34,816 bases of DNA from positions 1 to 34,816 of the forward strand of contig SVCV01000006.1 of assembly GCA_015058185.1 (NCBI GenBank), given 5' to 3'. The position numbers and the translations under genes were made by a program. Positions 6,765 through 18,766 of the stretch are shown piece by piece. The stretch comes from Clostridiales bacterium (lineage in GTDB: Bacteria > Bacillota > Clostridia > Peptostreptococcales > Anaerovoracaceae). The notes below the pieces were generated by a model that did not search any database, was not told the DNA's origin, and saw nothing but the letters and a program-made list of their open reading frames with translations. Every line of letters starts with the position of its first letter. The first letter of the stretch is position 1.

Positions 6765-7757
6765 TTATTCCCACTCGATGGTTGCGGGGGGCTTGGGTGT
6801 TATGTCGTACATAACTCTGTTTACACCGTCTACTTCGGCGATGATCCGACGAGCGATCTTGTCCAGCAGAGGATAGGGCAGCTGAGCGATGTCAGCGGAC
6901 ATGGCATCCTGGGAGTGGATGGCTCTGAGAACGATTGCCTGTGCGTAGGTTCGCTGGCCGTCCTTTACGCCAACGGAGCGGCAGCCGGGGCATACGGTGA
7001 AGAACTGCCAAATGCTGCCTTCCAGACCTGCGTTCTGAATTTCTTCTCTGAGGATGGCATCGGATTCTCTTACCAGTTCCAGCTTTTCTCTGGTGATCTC
7101 GCCGACTACGCGAACGCCCAGGCCGGGGCCGGGGAAGGGCTGTCTCCAAACCTGATAGTGGGGCAGGCCCAGTGCTTCGCCAACTTCGCGGACTTCGTCC
7201 TTGAAGAGCATCTTGATGGGTTCGCACAGTTCGAATTCCATATCTTCAGGCAGGCCGCCTACGTTGTGGTGAGACTTGACCAGACCTTCTTTTTCACTTT
7301 CGATGATGTCGGGATAGATGGTGCCCTGTACCAGGAATTCCATCTTGCCCAGCTTTGCGGATTCTTCTTCGAATACGCGGATGAATTCCTCGCCGATGAT
7401 CTTTCTCTTCTTTTCGGGTTCATCCACGCCTTCCAGCTTGCCCAGGAAACGATCAACTGCGTCTACGGAGATGAGGTTCATGTTGAACTGGTCGCGGAAA
7501 ATTTCATCGACCTGTTCGGGTTCGCCTTTTCTCATGAGGCCGTGGTTTACGAAAACGCAGGTCAGCTGATCGCCGATGGCTTTATGTACAAGGGCTGCGC
7601 ATACGGAGCTGTCAACACCGCCGGACAGGGCGCAAAGTGCCTTACCGTTTCCTACCTGAGCCCGGATCTGTTCGGTCATATCTTCAATAAAAGCATTAGG
7701 ATCCCAGTCGTAGTTAAATCCTCTTTCTCTGAAACTTTTTCTCTGTTCTGTACTCAT
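6765..7757 (-). CDS. guaA: GMP synthase, ATP-pyrophosphatase/C-terminal domain only (no glutamine amidotransferase domain)
   Basis: [39 protein letters not shown]; ends [14 protein letters not shown]; starts about where the ATPPase domain of full-length GuaA starts. Confidence 0.93.
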
Positions 7758-11176: not shown

Positions 11177-11929
11177 ATGCTGAGAGAATTAGGGGGAGCC
11201 ATTTTGGACTGGATCTATCCGCCGGATCTGTATTGCATTCGCTGCGGGAAAATGATCGAGTCCGGTTCGGACGTTTGTCTTTGCAAAGCGTGTGAAGAGG
11301 ACATTCGGCTTGTGGGAGGATCCCGCTGCCGCCGGTGCGGTAAGCCTATGGATCCGCTTCCCGAAAGGGATTTCCGCATGCGGGAGCGCACCTTGTGCGG
11401 AGATTGCCTGCGGGGAAGGGTGATCCGAAAGGGCGTTGTCTGCATGATTTATGACGGCAAGGAAAGGGAGATGATCCATCGGTTTAAGTTTGAGGATCAT
11501 CCCTATTACGGGGCCGGGATCGCGGCGTTGATGGCTGCGGGTCTACAGGGAAAGATCCCCGGGGACGTCGTTGTTATGGCGGTGCCTATGCACCGGGCGA
11601 AGCGGCGCCGAAGGGGATATGACCAGGCGCAGGTTTTGGGAAAAGCGTTAGCCCGGCATTTGGGCCGGCCTTTTTACGGGGATTGCTTGGTTCGTGCGGA
11701 GGCCACTGCTCCCATGATGAGTCTGGGCGGTCATGATCGGCTGCGGAATGTTTCCGGCGCTTTTACTGTGCGTTTTCCCGAAAGGTTTCGGGATGAAAAG
11801 GTTCTCCTTGTAGATGATATTTACACGACCGGCAGCACGGTGGATGCCTGCGGAAAGGCTCTTTTGGCCGCCGGTGCCAAGGAAATTTATATGGTAAGTG
11901 CTGCTTCCGGATACGGAAGCCGGGTATAA
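11177..11929 (+). CDS. comF: ComF family protein (phosphoribosyltransferase domain)
   Basis: Cys4 zinc motif CIRCGKMIESGSDVCLCKAC; VLLVDDIYTTGSTVDAC PRPP loop. Confidence 0.92.
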   Translation: MLRELGGAILDWIYPPDLYCIRCGKMIESGSDVCLCKACEEDIRLVGGSRCRRCGKPMDPLPERDFRMRERTLCGDCLRGRVIRKGVVCMIYDGKEREMIHRFKFEDHPYYGAGIAALMAAGLQGKIPGDVVVMAVPMHRAKRRRRGYDQAQVLGKALARHLGRPFYGDCLVRAEATAPMMSLGGHDRLRNVSGAFTVRFPERFRDEKVLLVDDIYTTGSTVDACGKALLAAGAKEIYMVSAASGYGSRV

Positions 11930-11938
11930 ACAAAAAAG

Positions 11939-12126
11939 AAAATGAGTTGAGAAGATCCCCCGGGTCTGTGGTTGAAAGTCCAGGCCAGGCGCAGGCAAAG
12001 GGACCCACGTAAGCTGCCTCAGGCAGTGATCATGGTGCGCCTTAGAAGTAAGTCCAGAGGAGAAGATCCCTGGCGGGTGTGGGGGCAAAGACCAGGTCAG
12101 CCGGTGGATCTTTTCAGCTCATTTTT
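11939..12126 (+). ncRNA. structured ncRNA, probable raiA-motif RNA
   Basis: ~20-bp closing helix AAAATGAGTTGAGAAGATCC / GGATCTTTTCAGCTCATTTT; no convincing ORF; sits between comF and hpf as described for the raiA motif. Confidence 0.72.
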
Positions 12127-12165
12127 AATTGCAAAAAACCGCGGAAATCCGCATTTTGTTGAATT

Positions 12166-12388
12166 TTATCCACAATCAGGCGAAATCAGTAAAAATTCTT
12201 GCAATTTCAAACCTCTTAAAAAAATTTTCAATATTTATGCATAGCAAAAACCATTGAAAAATCAACATTTCGATAGTTTTCCTTTGAAAAATCCCTGCAT
12301 AAAAATGAATAGGCGCACCATTTGGGACTTTTCCACATTAACAATCGCGGAATTTCAATTATTCACAGACTTATCCACAGAATCCACA
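12166..12388 (+). promoter_or_regulatory. DnaA-box cluster in AT-rich intergenic region
   Basis: TTATCCACA 12166-12174, TTTTCCACA 12329-12337, TTATTCACA 12359-12367, TTATCCACA 12371-12379, degenerate GAATCCACA 12380-12388. Confidence 0.6.
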
Positions 12389-12652: not shown

Positions 12653-13180
12653 ATGAAGGTTATCTTTACCAGCAAAAATTTCAATGCAAGTGATCACCTC
12701 AAAGACACGATCGAAAAGAAGATCGGCAAACTCAGCAAATACTTTGCCAAGGACATCGTAGCAAACATTACCTTGTCCATGGAAAGAGGCCGCCAGAAGA
12801 TGGAAGCCACCATCAATGCGGACGGAACCATTTTCCGTGCTGAAGATATCAACGATGACATTTATACTGCTGTAGACAAGGTCGTTGACAGACTGGCATC
12901 CCAGATGTCCCGCTTCAAGACCAAGCTGCAGAGAAAACATAAGGATTACAAAGAAATACTCTTCGAGGATGTTCCCGATGTTGCAGAGGAAGAAGATCTC
13001 TCCATCGTTCGCCGGAAGAAATTCGCTCTGCAGCCCATGTCCACGGACGAAGCCATTCTGCAGATGGAACTTCTGGAACACAGCTTCTATGTATTCCTGA
13101 ACTCTGAGACCGATGCAGTTGCTGTAGTTTATAAGAGAAATGACGGCGGTTACGGACTTCTCGAAACCGTGTACGAATAA
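12653..13180 (+). CDS. hpf: ribosome hibernation promoting factor, long form
   Basis: MKVIFTSKNFNASDHLKDTIEKKIGKLSKYF; C-terminal ...FYVFLNSETDAVAVVYKRNDGGYGLLE; RBS GATAGGGGG. Confidence 0.95.
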   Translation: MKVIFTSKNFNASDHLKDTIEKKIGKLSKYFAKDIVANITLSMERGRQKMEATINADGTIFRAEDINDDIYTAVDKVVDRLASQMSRFKTKLQRKHKDYKEILFEDVPDVAEEEDLSIVRRKKFALQPMSTDEAILQMELLEHSFYVFLNSETDAVAVVYKRNDGGYGLLETVYE

Positions 13181-13396: not shown

Positions 13397-14266
13397 ATGC
13401 GTACTATGTCTGTTTCTGAATTCTTCTCAGACATTTCTTCAGGGGTTCTGGCCGGGATCACCTTTACGGATATTATCGATGTGGTGATCGTGGCTTTTGT
13501 TGTCTATAAGATCATCGGCTTCATGCAGGCGACCCGTGCGGAACAGCTTGTTAAGGGGCTGATCGTTCTTCTGATCGCAACCTATCTGTCTGGCTTTTTC
13601 AACCTGTACACCCTCAACTGGATCCTGAAGGGAACCCTGAGCTTCGGTGTTATCGCTTTGATCATCATTTTCCAGCCGGAACTGCGCCGTGGTCTTGAAT
13701 ATTTGGGCCGTGGCGGATTGATCCGTCGCAGGGACAAGGACCAGGCCAAGAAGGTGGCTTCTATTATCGTCAGAGCTGTGGAACATTTTTCCGCCGAACG
13801 GATCGGTGCTCTGATCATTATTGAAAGACAAATTCTTCTGAATGACCATACGGAACACGGTACCATCCTCGACAGCGCGCTGTCCGAGGAGCTTTTGGGT
13901 GCCATTTTCTATGAAGGCGCACCTCTCCATGACGGTGCTGCCATTATCCGGGGAGACCGGATCTACGCTGCAGGCTGCATCCTGCCTCTGTCCTCCAACC
14001 GGACCCTCAGCCGGGAACTGGGCACCCGCCATCGTGCCGGTACCGGTATTACCGAAAACTCCGACGCCATCGCCGTTATCGTCTCCGAAGAGACCGGCGT
14101 TATTTCCATTGCCATTGACGGCAACCTGACTCGTTTCCTGGATCTGAAGACGGTGGAAAAGACCATCCTGAACAGCTCTTTGGAAGAGCAGGAAGAAAGA
14201 AAACCTTTTGCAGACGCATTTAAGAAATTCTGGAAAAAAGCAGAAGGGAGGGACACCCATGAGTAA
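13397..14266 (+). CDS. cdaA: diadenylate cyclase CdaA
   Basis: Three TM helices then DAC domain: GAPLHDGAAII, RHRAGTGITENSDAIAVIVSEETG. Confidence 0.95.
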   Translation: MRTMSVSEFFSDISSGVLAGITFTDIIDVVIVAFVVYKIIGFMQATRAEQLVKGLIVLLIATYLSGFFNLYTLNWILKGTLSFGVIALIIIFQPELRRGLEYLGRGGLIRRRDKDQAKKVASIIVRAVEHFSAERIGALIIIERQILLNDHTEHGTILDSALSEELLGAIFYEGAPLHDGAAIIRGDRIYAAGCILPLSSNRTLSRELGTRHRAGTGITENSDAIAVIVSEETGVISIAIDGNLTRFLDLKTVEKTILNSSLEEQEERKPFADAFKKFWKKAEGRDTHE

Positions 14267-15542
14267 CTTCGACGGATTTAAGGGATCTTCCGATGACAAA
14301 TTCTGGACAAAGGAAAGAGATAACAAGGGACGCTACTCGAAAGGTGTTCGCTGGGTTTTGGCCATCGTCATTGCCTTTGGCCTTTGGGTCTATGTGATCA
14401 GTGAAACCAACCCCACTACGCAGGAAGTCTTTACCTCCGTTCCCGTTGAACTTCTGAACGAAGAGTCCCTGGTAAACAGAGGACTGGCTTTGGTGGGTGA
14501 CGGCGAATATACCGTTAATGTGACCGTGGAAGGAAAGCGCGGAGATATCCAAAGTACGGATGTGGATGCCATCGTGGCCACCGTTGACCTCTTCGGCTAC
14601 AGCCAGGGTGATAATTACATCATGGTCAATGTGAACCTGCCGGCCAACAGCGATGTTTCCTTTGTGGAAGTTCGTCCTGCCCGGATCCTTGTGGAGATCG
14701 ATGAGTTTGCTGCGGTAAGCAAGGAGATCGATGTTCATATTGACGGCAGTCTCCCTTCCGGCCAGCAGCTGAGCTCTGCCTCTGTCAGCCCCAGTGAAGT
14801 GGTGGTTTCCGGCCCCAAGAGCTGGGTCGACCAGGTGGCTACCGTAGACGTTTTCGTTTCTGCAGAAATGCTGGATGAAGACGGCGATCCGATCCAGGTA
14901 GAAGCCATTCCCATGAACGAAGAAGGGCTGCGGGTAGAAAATGTTTCTCTGTCCACCCCCTATGTGGATTATGCCGCAAACTTGTATCCCACAAAGACCG
15001 TGCCGGTAGAGATCCCCTTTGTCGGAGAGCTTCCGGAAGGCTTTGTTTTGGACGAGCATGAATCCGTATCCGCTGTGATCCGCGGACCGAAGTCTGCGCT
15101 GCGTTCCGTATCCTCGCTGACAGCGGAGCCTGTGGATCTGTCGTCCCTTGCCGAGGGTCTGAACCGGATCCCCCTGCGGATCAGCCTGCCCTCTAAGGCG
15201 GAATATGCCAGAGGCCAGGAAAAGCCTTATGTGGAATTGATCGTGAAGCCCACGGATTCCGTCTCCTTCGTGTATGATACCGATGATCTTCAGCTGAAGA
15301 ATCTGACCGCTGAATACGGAGTGGATATTGCTTCTCAGGAATTCTATCTGACGGTGGTGGGAGAACGTTCTGTAGTGGAAATGTTAACGCAGAATGATTT
15401 CCTTCTGTCCATCGATCTTGCCGGCGTGAGTGCCGGAGAATATACCGCTGCGGTGGATGTTATTTATGATCCCGGCCTGAAGGTCCAATCCTGGGTTTTG
15501 GATCCCTCCTCCATCGATATTGTTGTGACCGAGAAAGAGTAA
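14259..15542 (+). CDS. cdaR: CdaR, YbbR-domain regulator of CdaA
   Basis: Single TM then YbbR-like repeats; start ATG 14259 overlapping the cdaA end. Confidence 0.88.
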   Translation: MSNFDGFKGSSDDKFWTKERDNKGRYSKGVRWVLAIVIAFGLWVYVISETNPTTQEVFTSVPVELLNEESLVNRGLALVGDGEYTVNVTVEGKRGDIQSTDVDAIVATVDLFGYSQGDNYIMVNVNLPANSDVSFVEVRPARILVEIDEFAAVSKEIDVHIDGSLPSGQQLSSASVSPSEVVVSGPKSWVDQVATVDVFVSAEMLDEDGDPIQVEAIPMNEEGLRVENVSLSTPYVDYAANLYPTKTVPVEIPFVGELPEGFVLDEHESVSAVIRGPKSALRSVSSLTAEPVDLSSLAEGLNRIPLRISLPSKAEYARGQEKPYVELIVKPTDSVSFVYDTDDLQLKNLTAEYGVDIASQEFYLTVVGERSVVEMLTQNDFLLSIDLAGVSAGEYTAAVDVIYDPGLKVQSWVLDPSSIDIVVTEKE

Positions 15543-15575
15543 GCATCACGGGCGAAGGCCCGAAAAGGAGAAAAC

Positions 15576-16925
15576 ATGAGCAGATTATTCGGAACAGACG
15601 GGGTCAGAGGCGTGGCCAACACGGAGCTGACCCCTCAGCTTGCCTATAAATTGGGTCGGGCCGGTGCGGCTGTCCTCAGCAAAGACCATCCCCGCCCCGT
15701 GATTTTAGTTGGAAAAGATACCCGTATTTCCGGCGACCTTTTGGAAGAGGCCCTTTGTGCAGGGATCCTTTCCGTTGGCGGCGATGTGATTCGGGCCGGC
15801 GTGATCCCCACCCCCGCAGTGGCTTATCTCGTAAAGCATTTCAATGCCGCTGCCGGTGCTATGATCTCCGCTTCCCATAATCCCTTTGAGTACAACGGGA
15901 TCAAATTCTTTAATGGTCAGGGCTTTAAGCTGGACGATGCCATCGAGGATGAGATCGAAGCCCGGATCAACTGCGACGATTATACCCAGGATCCTGTGAC
16001 CGGTTCCGGTTTGGGTCGGGTCCTTTCTCCCGACGGTGATCCCGGAGAGATCTATCTGAACTTCCTGAAGAGCACCGTGGACGTGGACTTTTCCGGCATG
16101 AAGCTGGTTTTGGACTGTGCCAACGGCGCATCCTCCGCCTATGCTGCCCGGTTGTTCCGGGAGCTTGGCGCGGACGTCACTGCCATTTCCGACCAGCCTG
16201 ATGGTATCAATATCAACGAAAACTGCGGTTCCACCCACCCTGAAAATCTGCAGGAGCAGGTCTATGCTTTGAACGCAGATCTGGGTCTCGCCTTTGACGG
16301 TGACGCCGACAGACTGATCGCTGTGGATGAAAACGGTCGGGTCATTGACGGTGACCGGATGATCTGTGTCTGCGCCGAAATGATGAAGAGGGAAGGCTCT
16401 CTCCCTGATGGCAGGGTCACGGTTACGGTCATGAGCAACCTGGGATTCCACAAGGCCATGGGCGAAGCCGGCTGCAAGGTAGACGTTACCGCAGTAGGCG
16501 ATCGCTATGTTTTGGAAAGCATGCTGAAAACCGGAAGCGCCATCGGCGGCGAGCAGTCCGGACATATTATTTTCCTGAACCACAGCACCACCGGCGACGG
16601 AATGCTTTCCGCTTTACAGCTCTTGAAGGCAGTCAAGACCGGCGGCGGAAGCCTGGCTGCGCTGGCAGACCGAATGGAAGTATTCCCCCAGGTTCTGCGG
16701 AATGCACGGATAAAGAACGAATATAAGAATACATATATGGAGAATCCCGAAATTCGGGAAGCCATTGAAAGAATCGAAGCTGTGATGGCCGGGGAAGGCC
16801 GGGTGCTGATCCGTCCTTCCGGAACAGAGCCCCTGGTTCGGGTCATGATCGAAGGAAAAGACCAGACACAGATCACGGCGTTGGCTGAGGAACTGGCTCA
16901 GCTCATTACTGAGAAATTGGCTTAG
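15576..16925 (+). CDS. glmM: phosphoglucosamine mutase
   Basis: MSRLFGTDGVRGVANTELTP; MISASHNPFEYNGIKFF; FDGDADR; RPSGTEPLVRVMIEG. Confidence 0.97.
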   Translation: MSRLFGTDGVRGVANTELTPQLAYKLGRAGAAVLSKDHPRPVILVGKDTRISGDLLEEALCAGILSVGGDVIRAGVIPTPAVAYLVKHFNAAAGAMISASHNPFEYNGIKFFNGQGFKLDDAIEDEIEARINCDDYTQDPVTGSGLGRVLSPDGDPGEIYLNFLKSTVDVDFSGMKLVLDCANGASSAYAARLFRELGADVTAISDQPDGININENCGSTHPENLQEQVYALNADLGLAFDGDADRLIAVDENGRVIDGDRMICVCAEMMKREGSLPDGRVTVTVMSNLGFHKAMGEAGCKVDVTAVGDRYVLESMLKTGSAIGGEQSGHIIFLNHSTTGDGMLSALQLLKAVKTGGGSLAALADRMEVFPQVLRNARIKNEYKNTYMENPEIREAIERIEAVMAGEGRVLIRPSGTEPLVRVMIEGKDQTQITALAEELAQLITEKLA

Positions 16926-16936
16926 GAGGCAAGACT

Positions 16937-18766
16937 ATGTGCGGTATCGTAGGCTATATCGGCAGCGATAATGCCAGCGACATTATCATTGACGGTTTGA
17001 AAAAGCTGGAGTATAGAGGATACGATTCTGCGGGGATCGCTCTGCAGAAAAACGGACAGATCCTTGTACATAAATACAAAGGGCGGATCGCTAATCTGGA
17101 AGCAGCCATCGAGGGAAAGGATCTGTACAGCCACTGCGGCATCGGTCACACCCGTTGGGCTACCCACGGTGCACCCTCTGATGTAAACTCCCATCCTCAT
17201 ACCAATGGGGACGGAAGCATTGCCGTTGTTCACAACGGGATCATCGAAAATTACACCGAACTGAAGGAATGGCTCATTGCTGAACATGGAGTGGAATTCC
17301 GGTCCGAGACGGATACGGAAGTCATCGCTCACCTGGTGGGCCTTTACTATGACGGCGACCTGATGGATGCAGTTTATAAGGCTGCGGAAAAGATGCGGGG
17401 CGCCTATGCCATCGGTGCCATCTGCAACAAAGAGCCGGACAAAATGGTAGCGGTTCGGAAGGACAGTCCCCTGGTAGTGGGGTTGGGCGAAGGATGCAAT
17501 TTTATTGCTTCGGATATTCCCGCTCTCCTTCGCTATGTCCGAAAGATCTATCTGATCGAAAACAACGAGACCGTAGTTCTTACTAAGGATGAGGTCAAGA
17601 TCTATAATGCGGACCGGAAGGAAGTACACCGAGATGTCTTCCACGTTACCTGGGATGCAGATGCCGCGGAAAAAGAAGGCTACGATCACTTTATGATCAA
17701 GGAGATCCACGAACAGCCCAAGGGTCTGTACGAAACCCTTCACCGCCGTTTGTTGGAAGATGACAGCATCAAACTGGACGGCATTACCATCACCAAAGAA
17801 GAAATCGAAAACCTGGATAAGGTTTATATCGTCGCCTGCGGAACAGCTTATCACGCCGGCCTGATCGGCAAATTCGCCATCGAGCGCTTTGCCAGGATCC
17901 CTGTGGAAGTGGAAGTGGCTTCCGAGTTCCGTTACAGGGAACCTCTCATTAACGAAAAGTCTTTGTTTATCGCCATCAGCCAGTCCGGAGAGACCTCCGA
18001 CACTTTGGCTGCCCTTCGGGAAGCCAAGAGCAAGGGTGCCCGGGTATTGTCTGTGGTAAATGTGGTGGGAAGTTCCGTTGCCAGAGAATCTGACGATGTA
18101 TTTTACACCTGGGCAGGTCCTGAGATCGCCGTTGCCTCTACGAAGGCTTACACCACCCAGCTGATGTGTATGTACCTGATCGCCCTGCACATGGCAAAGG
18201 AAAAGGGTGTTATGAGCCAGGAAGAGTACCTGGGCTATATTCGGGATCTGAAAGAGATTCCCGAAAAGCTGAAGAAGATCCTTCGTTCCGAAAAGGCGAT
18301 CCACGAGATGGCCAAGGATCTGTACAAAACGGAGCAGGTATTCTTTATCGGCAGAGGAAACGATTCTGCGGTTTCTTATGAGGGCTCTCTGAAGCTGAAG
18401 GAGATCTCCTATATCAATTCTTTCGCCATTGCTGCGGGAGAACTGAAGCACGGAACCATCGCTCTGATCGAAAAAGATACTTTGGTCATTTCCCTCGCTG
18501 CGCAGGATCATCTCTTTGAAAAGATGCTCTCCAATATTCAGGAAGTAAAGGCCAGAGGCGCCTATGTGGTAGGTCTCGCCAAGGAAGGCAATACGGAGAT
18601 CGAAAAGCAGGCGGATCGGGTGATCTACATTCCCGAATGCCGGGATGAGCTGACACCTCTTCTGTCCGTGGTTCCTCTCCAGCTGTTGGCTTATTATATT
18701 GCAAAGCTGCGGGGCTGCGATATCGACAAGCCCAAGAACCTGGCCAAGTCCGTTACTGTAGAATAA
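16937..18766 (+). CDS. glmS: glutamine--fructose-6-phosphate aminotransferase (isomerizing)
   Basis: MCGIVGYIGSDNASDIIIDGLKKLEYRGYDSAG; C-terminal DKPKNLAKSVTVE. Confidence 0.98.
   Translation: MCGIVGYIGSDNASDIIIDGLKKLEYRGYDSAGIALQKNGQILVHKYKGRIANLEAAIEGKDLYSHCGIGHTRWATHGAPSDVNSHPHTNGDGSIAVVHNGIIENYTELKEWLIAEHGVEFRSETDTEVIAHLVGLYYDGDLMDAVYKAAEKMRGAYAIGAICNKEPDKMVAVRKDSPLVVGLGEGCNFIASDIPALLRYVRKIYLIENNETVVLTKDEVKIYNADRKEVHRDVFHVTWDADAAEKEGYDHFMIKEIHEQPKGLYETLHRRLLEDDSIKLDGITITKEEIENLDKVYIVACGTAYHAGLIGKFAIERFARIPVEVEVASEFRYREPLINEKSLFIAISQSGETSDTLAALREAKSKGARVLSVVNVVGSSVARESDDVFYTWAGPEIAVASTKAYTTQLMCMYLIALHMAKEKGVMSQEEYLGYIRDLKEIPEKLKKILRSEKAIHEMAKDLYKTEQVFFIGRGNDSAVSYEGSLKLKEISYINSFAIAAGELKHGTIALIEKDTLVISLAAQDHLFEKMLSNIQEVKARGAYVVGLAKEGNTEIEKQADRVIYIPECRDELTPLLSVVPLQLLAYYIAKLRGCDIDKPKNLAKSVTVE

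Follow-up and report, generated by a model that had tools for sequence, protein, structure and literature searches.

The raiA RNA is found in more than 2,500 species, its abundance can rival that of ribosomal RNA, and structures of it have been solved; we know of no molecular function for it. In C. difficile the RNA is very abundant, stable and trans-acting, and its loss delays the transition to stationary phase, raises c-di-GMP and lowers sporulation (PMC11706538). Trans action, abundance and stability, together with a monomeric fold, have been described for the class (PMC11706538, PMC11751092, PMC12286853). It typically has comFC upstream (74%) and raiA/hpf downstream (66%) (PMC11706538), and the form with a short P6, variant 1, makes up 32% of the published sequences (PMC11751092).

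Judged from its sequence, the segment at 11938-12126 (forward strand, as are all features of the locus given below) of the window, the whole stretch of 34,816 nucleotides analysed here, is a raiA (ModT) RNA gene, a member of this known class. A cmscan search of the whole window against Rfam gave a single above-threshold match, to the raiA RNA RF03072 at 11955-12109 (136.9 bits against a gathering threshold of 101.3, E 6e-34), covering the full model length, 1-209. The earlier note had proposed a raiA-motif RNA here, and this match bears the proposal out; the boundaries it had drawn are those of the Rfam match plus the outer helix. It had also seen no credible ORF in the segment, and the ORFs that cross it are indeed mechanical only, for example a 90-aa TTG frame at 11972-12244. 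As in RF03072/ModT generally, all helices and pk1 are present, with comF upstream and hpf downstream, but P1 continues 17 bp beyond the model, a recognisable promoter of the RNA’s own is weak or absent and the comF stop codon lies 8 nt from the helix. The C. acetobutylicum raiA RNA solved by cryo-EM (PDB 9CXF, 9ELY) shares P1, P3, P4, P5, pk1 and the conserved joining nucleotides with the window; it is a variant 2 RNA with P6-P7-P8 and an E-loop, whereas P6 in the window is one short hairpin, as in variant 1.

The source genome (1.56 Mb, 84% complete) has one copy of the RNA, which was also present in 69 of the 81 genomes of relatives. The relatives nearest by HPF include several metagenome genomes named ‘Clostridiales Family XIII’, and the family of the window’s close relatives is therefore probably GTDB Anaerovoracaceae. 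One relative, G023 (loci L070, G023:C90, and L064, G023:C24), has a second, partial raiA match (37.6 bits) behind a comF and cut by a contig end; either a split in the assembly or a further copy of the RNA may account for it.

The segment is predicted to fold at -86.8 kcal/mol, against -62.5 +/- 4.4 for shuffled sequences (z -5.5), and 0 of 200 shuffles folded as well. We mapped the published architecture (PMC11751092) onto the window to assign the helices. The core (11955-12109) begins with the 5' strands of P1a, P1b and P1c (11955-11973), whose partners are 12101-12109, 12098-12100 and 12090-12094. P3 (11978-12004) comprises P3a (11978-11981 with 12001-12004), P3b (11984-11986 with 11994-11996) and a loop at 11987-11993. 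This loop, AGGCGCA, forms the 7 bp of pk1 with TGCGCCT in the pk-loop half at 12036-12042, corresponding to the 7-bp pk-1 of the raiA cryo-EM structure (PMC11751092). P4 joins 12005-12008 to 12079-12082. P5, a CTGCC-TCA-GGCAG hairpin at 12014-12026, is the interior self-complementary element CTGCCTCAGGCAG that the sequence had already suggested, and proved to be a real hairpin. A short P6 stem-loop at 12054-12073 stands in place of P6-P7-P8, as in most of the window’s family, where three members have the long form. The published P1, P3, P4, P5 and pk1 pairs are all formed in the window except for a single C-U mismatch in P1a (11959/12105).

These helices covary in relatives. Across 61 pairs in 38 family members, in an alignment built by sequence and not structure-fitted, 87.6% of cells were paired and 46 of the 61 pairs showed double changes, with a covariation score of 0.49 compared with 0.19 for shuffled and 0.09-0.15 for slid partners. 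P3 was paired in 100% of cells, and pk1 in 98.5%, with double changes in five of its seven pairs. P4 was also 100% paired, with one change from A-U to G-C. A 2-bp pk2 candidate picked by eye (U12033-G12034 with C12086-A12087) lies in columns that hardly vary and are uninformative. The window also contains an 11-nt direct repeat, GAGAAGATCCC, at 11949-11959 in the 5' strand of P1 and at 12060-12070 in the P6 hairpin. We considered strand exchange with the 3' strand of P1 and rejected it; as no other family member has the repeat (the next best is 7 nt), we take it as chance.

The closing stem reaches beyond the model. A 20-bp helix with two G-U pairs had been read directly from the letters, and AAAATGAGTTGAGAAGATCC (11939-11958) does pair with GGATCTTTTCAGCTCATTTT (12106-12125); one further G-U pair, 11938/12126, can be added. 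The 17 pairs between 11938-11954 and 12110-12126 fall outside the Rfam model and produce a closing stem of 26 bp with one mismatch. Compensatory changes in this helix, which the earlier note had named as a check, were found in the relatives: at least eight contiguous outer pairs, with all pair types represented, occurred in 25 of 43 family members (58%), and in only 0.7% of controls in which strands from different genomes were paired. The extension is missing from other families of the order, whose RNAs (23 of them) had a median of two outer pairs. Compared in this way across genomes, the complementarity of the outer helix exceeds chance. The 17-bp extension adds to the known picture of raiA RNA, although an earlier description of it may exist.

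The neighbourhood is the one expected for the class, and Pfam upheld the placement of the RNA between comF and hpf that the note had given. The comF-type gene (11177-11929; DZR_2 and Pribosyltran) stops 25 nt short of the Rfam match, and the gene for a long-form ribosome hibernation factor, hpf/raiA (12653-13180; Ribosomal_S30AE and S30AE_C), begins 544 nt after it, an order that recurs in many relatives. Further downstream cdaA-cdaR-glmM-glmS (13397-18766; glmS by eye) follows hpf, which puts a c-di-AMP synthase operon directly after raiA-hpf. Elsewhere in the window a GMP synthase gene (6765-7757, reverse strand) encodes the C-terminal part only (guaA_Cterm; GuaA positions 190-512), with the glutaminase part unfused.

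Two other identities for the segment were weighed. A long closing helix and a length near 185 nt would also suit 6S RNA, an alternative that had been raised alongside raiA, or some other structured RNA of high abundance, but the chance of this is negligible: a permissive cmscan of the segment gave no 6S match even at E values up to 10 and no other class near, while raiA matched at E 8e-36. That the segment might instead act in cis on hpf, as its leader or as a riboswitch, is suggested by the Rfam type label ‘Cis-reg; riboswitch’ and by an hpf gene downstream on the same strand. However, hpf is separated from the RNA by 544 nt that include a DnaA-box array, it lies elsewhere or in the opposite orientation in several relatives (L003, L004, L030), and in C. 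difficile the RNA can be complemented in trans, which speaks against a role in cis (PMC11706538). As linkage to one downstream gene is not constant in relatives, a cis-riboswitch of hpf is largely refuted, and we regard it as very improbable. No second RNA motif was found in the hpf leader.

How the RNA is made is a closer question. The comF stop codon is 8 nt before the outer helix, with no space for a terminator, so the comF transcript can hardly end there and transcription from recD2-comF should run into the RNA. Upstream of the RNA the promoter scan found a candidate -10, TATAAA (11925-11930), overlapping the comF stop codon, with no good -35 (CTGCTT, matching at two of six positions). This placed the window at the 46th percentile of same-locus controls, or the 86th when position was restricted, compared with the 98th or above for the near-consensus sigma-A promoters directly upstream of the RNA in other families of the order. 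Counting a promoter as found at or above the 95th percentile of same-locus controls, it was present in three of the 24 members of the window’s family whose comF lies no more than 60 nt away and in 16 of the 19 others (Fisher p 2.6e-6). Long outer helices were associated with missing promoters (p 0.009), although a few relatives (L048, L036 and L035) combine a good promoter with a long helix. Promoter and comF labels were unclustered on the HPF tree; strictly independent tree pairs, too few for a firm test, agreed with the comF-promoter link in 4-5 of 7, with almost none opposite (p about 0.125). A separate terminator was found for 15 of 23 RNAs in other families (control rate 8%) and for five of 29 long-helix members of the window’s family.

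A promoter that is mostly undetectable when comF is directly upstream suggests excision from the comF mRNA, and we infer that in much of the window’s family the raiA RNA is made within that mRNA and released via the long stem. RNase III releases structured RNAs in this manner through processing stalks, as in rRNA precursors; the shared feature is that a structured RNA within a longer transcript is closed by a long and nearly perfect helix, and the likeness is one of resemblance only. The stronger form of the idea, that family RNAs lying after comF have largely lost their own promoter and are cut from the comF mRNA by way of a long processing stalk, we put forward tentatively. It is also plausible, though less likely than not, that the RNA keeps its own sigma-A promoter, with TATAAA as the -10, and that the long P1, with the T run at its end, serves simply to terminate transcription intrinsically or to stabilise the RNA. 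C. difficile has a single SigA promoter (PMC11706538), TATAAA sits a few nucleotides upstream of the expected start, and the T-rich run noted from the sequence is there, at 12122-12126, closing the helix from within its strand. Set against this are the poor -35, the low ranking relative to other families and the T runs themselves, which end the helix in 16 of 29 cases compared with eight of 23 in other families and so are not clearly enriched; for the same reason we did not retain the long P1 as a terminator. Production from the comF mRNA faces its own difficulty in the window, where TATAAA is located just where a promoter for a start at the base of the helix belongs. Because a weak promoter would be correctly placed there, we extend this route to the window itself only with reserve.

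The genomes of relatives also bear on what the RNA is for. Thirteen genomes at least 90% complete, mostly drafts in which single cases could be binning errors, retain raiA RNA with no GGDEF domain, and eight of them also lack Spo0A. Spo0A_C and GGDEF matches were both missing from G005, G011 (in two contigs), G037, G041, G043, G051, G062 and G073; GGDEF alone was missing from G002, G018, G031, G033 and G042. These genomes fall in two families, and the source genome itself has one Spo0A_C and one GGDEF match. Since near-complete genomes keep the RNA without GGDEF, and eight of them without Spo0A as well, sporulation and c-di-GMP are apparently not its core job, and the core role should be more basic.

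Adjoining the RNA, and outside it, is a tandem array of putative DnaA boxes (12329-12388). Boxes begin at 12329, 12359 and 12371, with a degenerate one at 12380 (fixed spacings of 30/12/9 bp) and an outlier at 12166; those at 12166 and 12371 are exact, those at 12329 and 12359 have one mismatch, and all lie on one strand. At least three boxes, with a consensus near TTATCAACAGAGTTATCCACATTATCCACAG and dominant spacings of 12, 9, 21 and 30-31 bp, were found in 42 of 92 regions surveyed. The array occurs across orders, in the window’s family, in several families of its order, in Tissierellales (Tissierella, Soehngenia) and in Caloramator. The 30-base pattern of the box triple was present in 29 of 81 genomes, nearly always in one place and at this locus, with one control hit. 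We ruled out that the array is a chromosomal origin, as three closed or near-closed genomes place dnaA about 305-525 kb from it, and that it is part of the RNA, as it precedes hpf in genomes that have no raiA RNA too. In two genomes with hpf 4-9 kb away the array stays with the raiA RNA. It might serve to titrate or reactivate DnaA, or to control hpf. Among the papers searched, none joined DnaA boxes with a hibernation factor.

The picture we favour, with a probability of about 0.6, is of a raiA/ModT RNA of about 190 nt with the conserved fold and a 17-bp extension of P1, acting in trans, its production linked to comF and its ends processed through the stem. By analogy with its relatives the RNA would fold into a compact monomer and be abundant and stable, probably inside an RNA-protein particle, and would help cells to leave exponential growth. 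The 26-bp stem, with its one mismatch, would let a double-strand endonuclease, for instance RNase III, free the RNA from the comF mRNA, and it would also protect the ends of the RNA; any promoter of the RNA’s own in the window would be weak. The changes in sporulation and c-di-GMP reported in C. difficile would then lie downstream of a role that is more basic.

The long P1, the promoter pattern, the Spo0A/GGDEF-less genomes and the DnaA-box array are additions to what is known of the class. If the RNA is released from the comF mRNA in this lineage, its production is itself regulated and testable, and its supply would be tied to comF transcription and nuclease processing and not to a strong sigma-A promoter. 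A usually single-copy array beside the raiA RNA suggests that the locus is linked to the control of replication in Clostridia. The genomes that lack Spo0A and GGDEF remove two favoured outputs as the core role of the RNA, and offer small model genomes in which to search for it.
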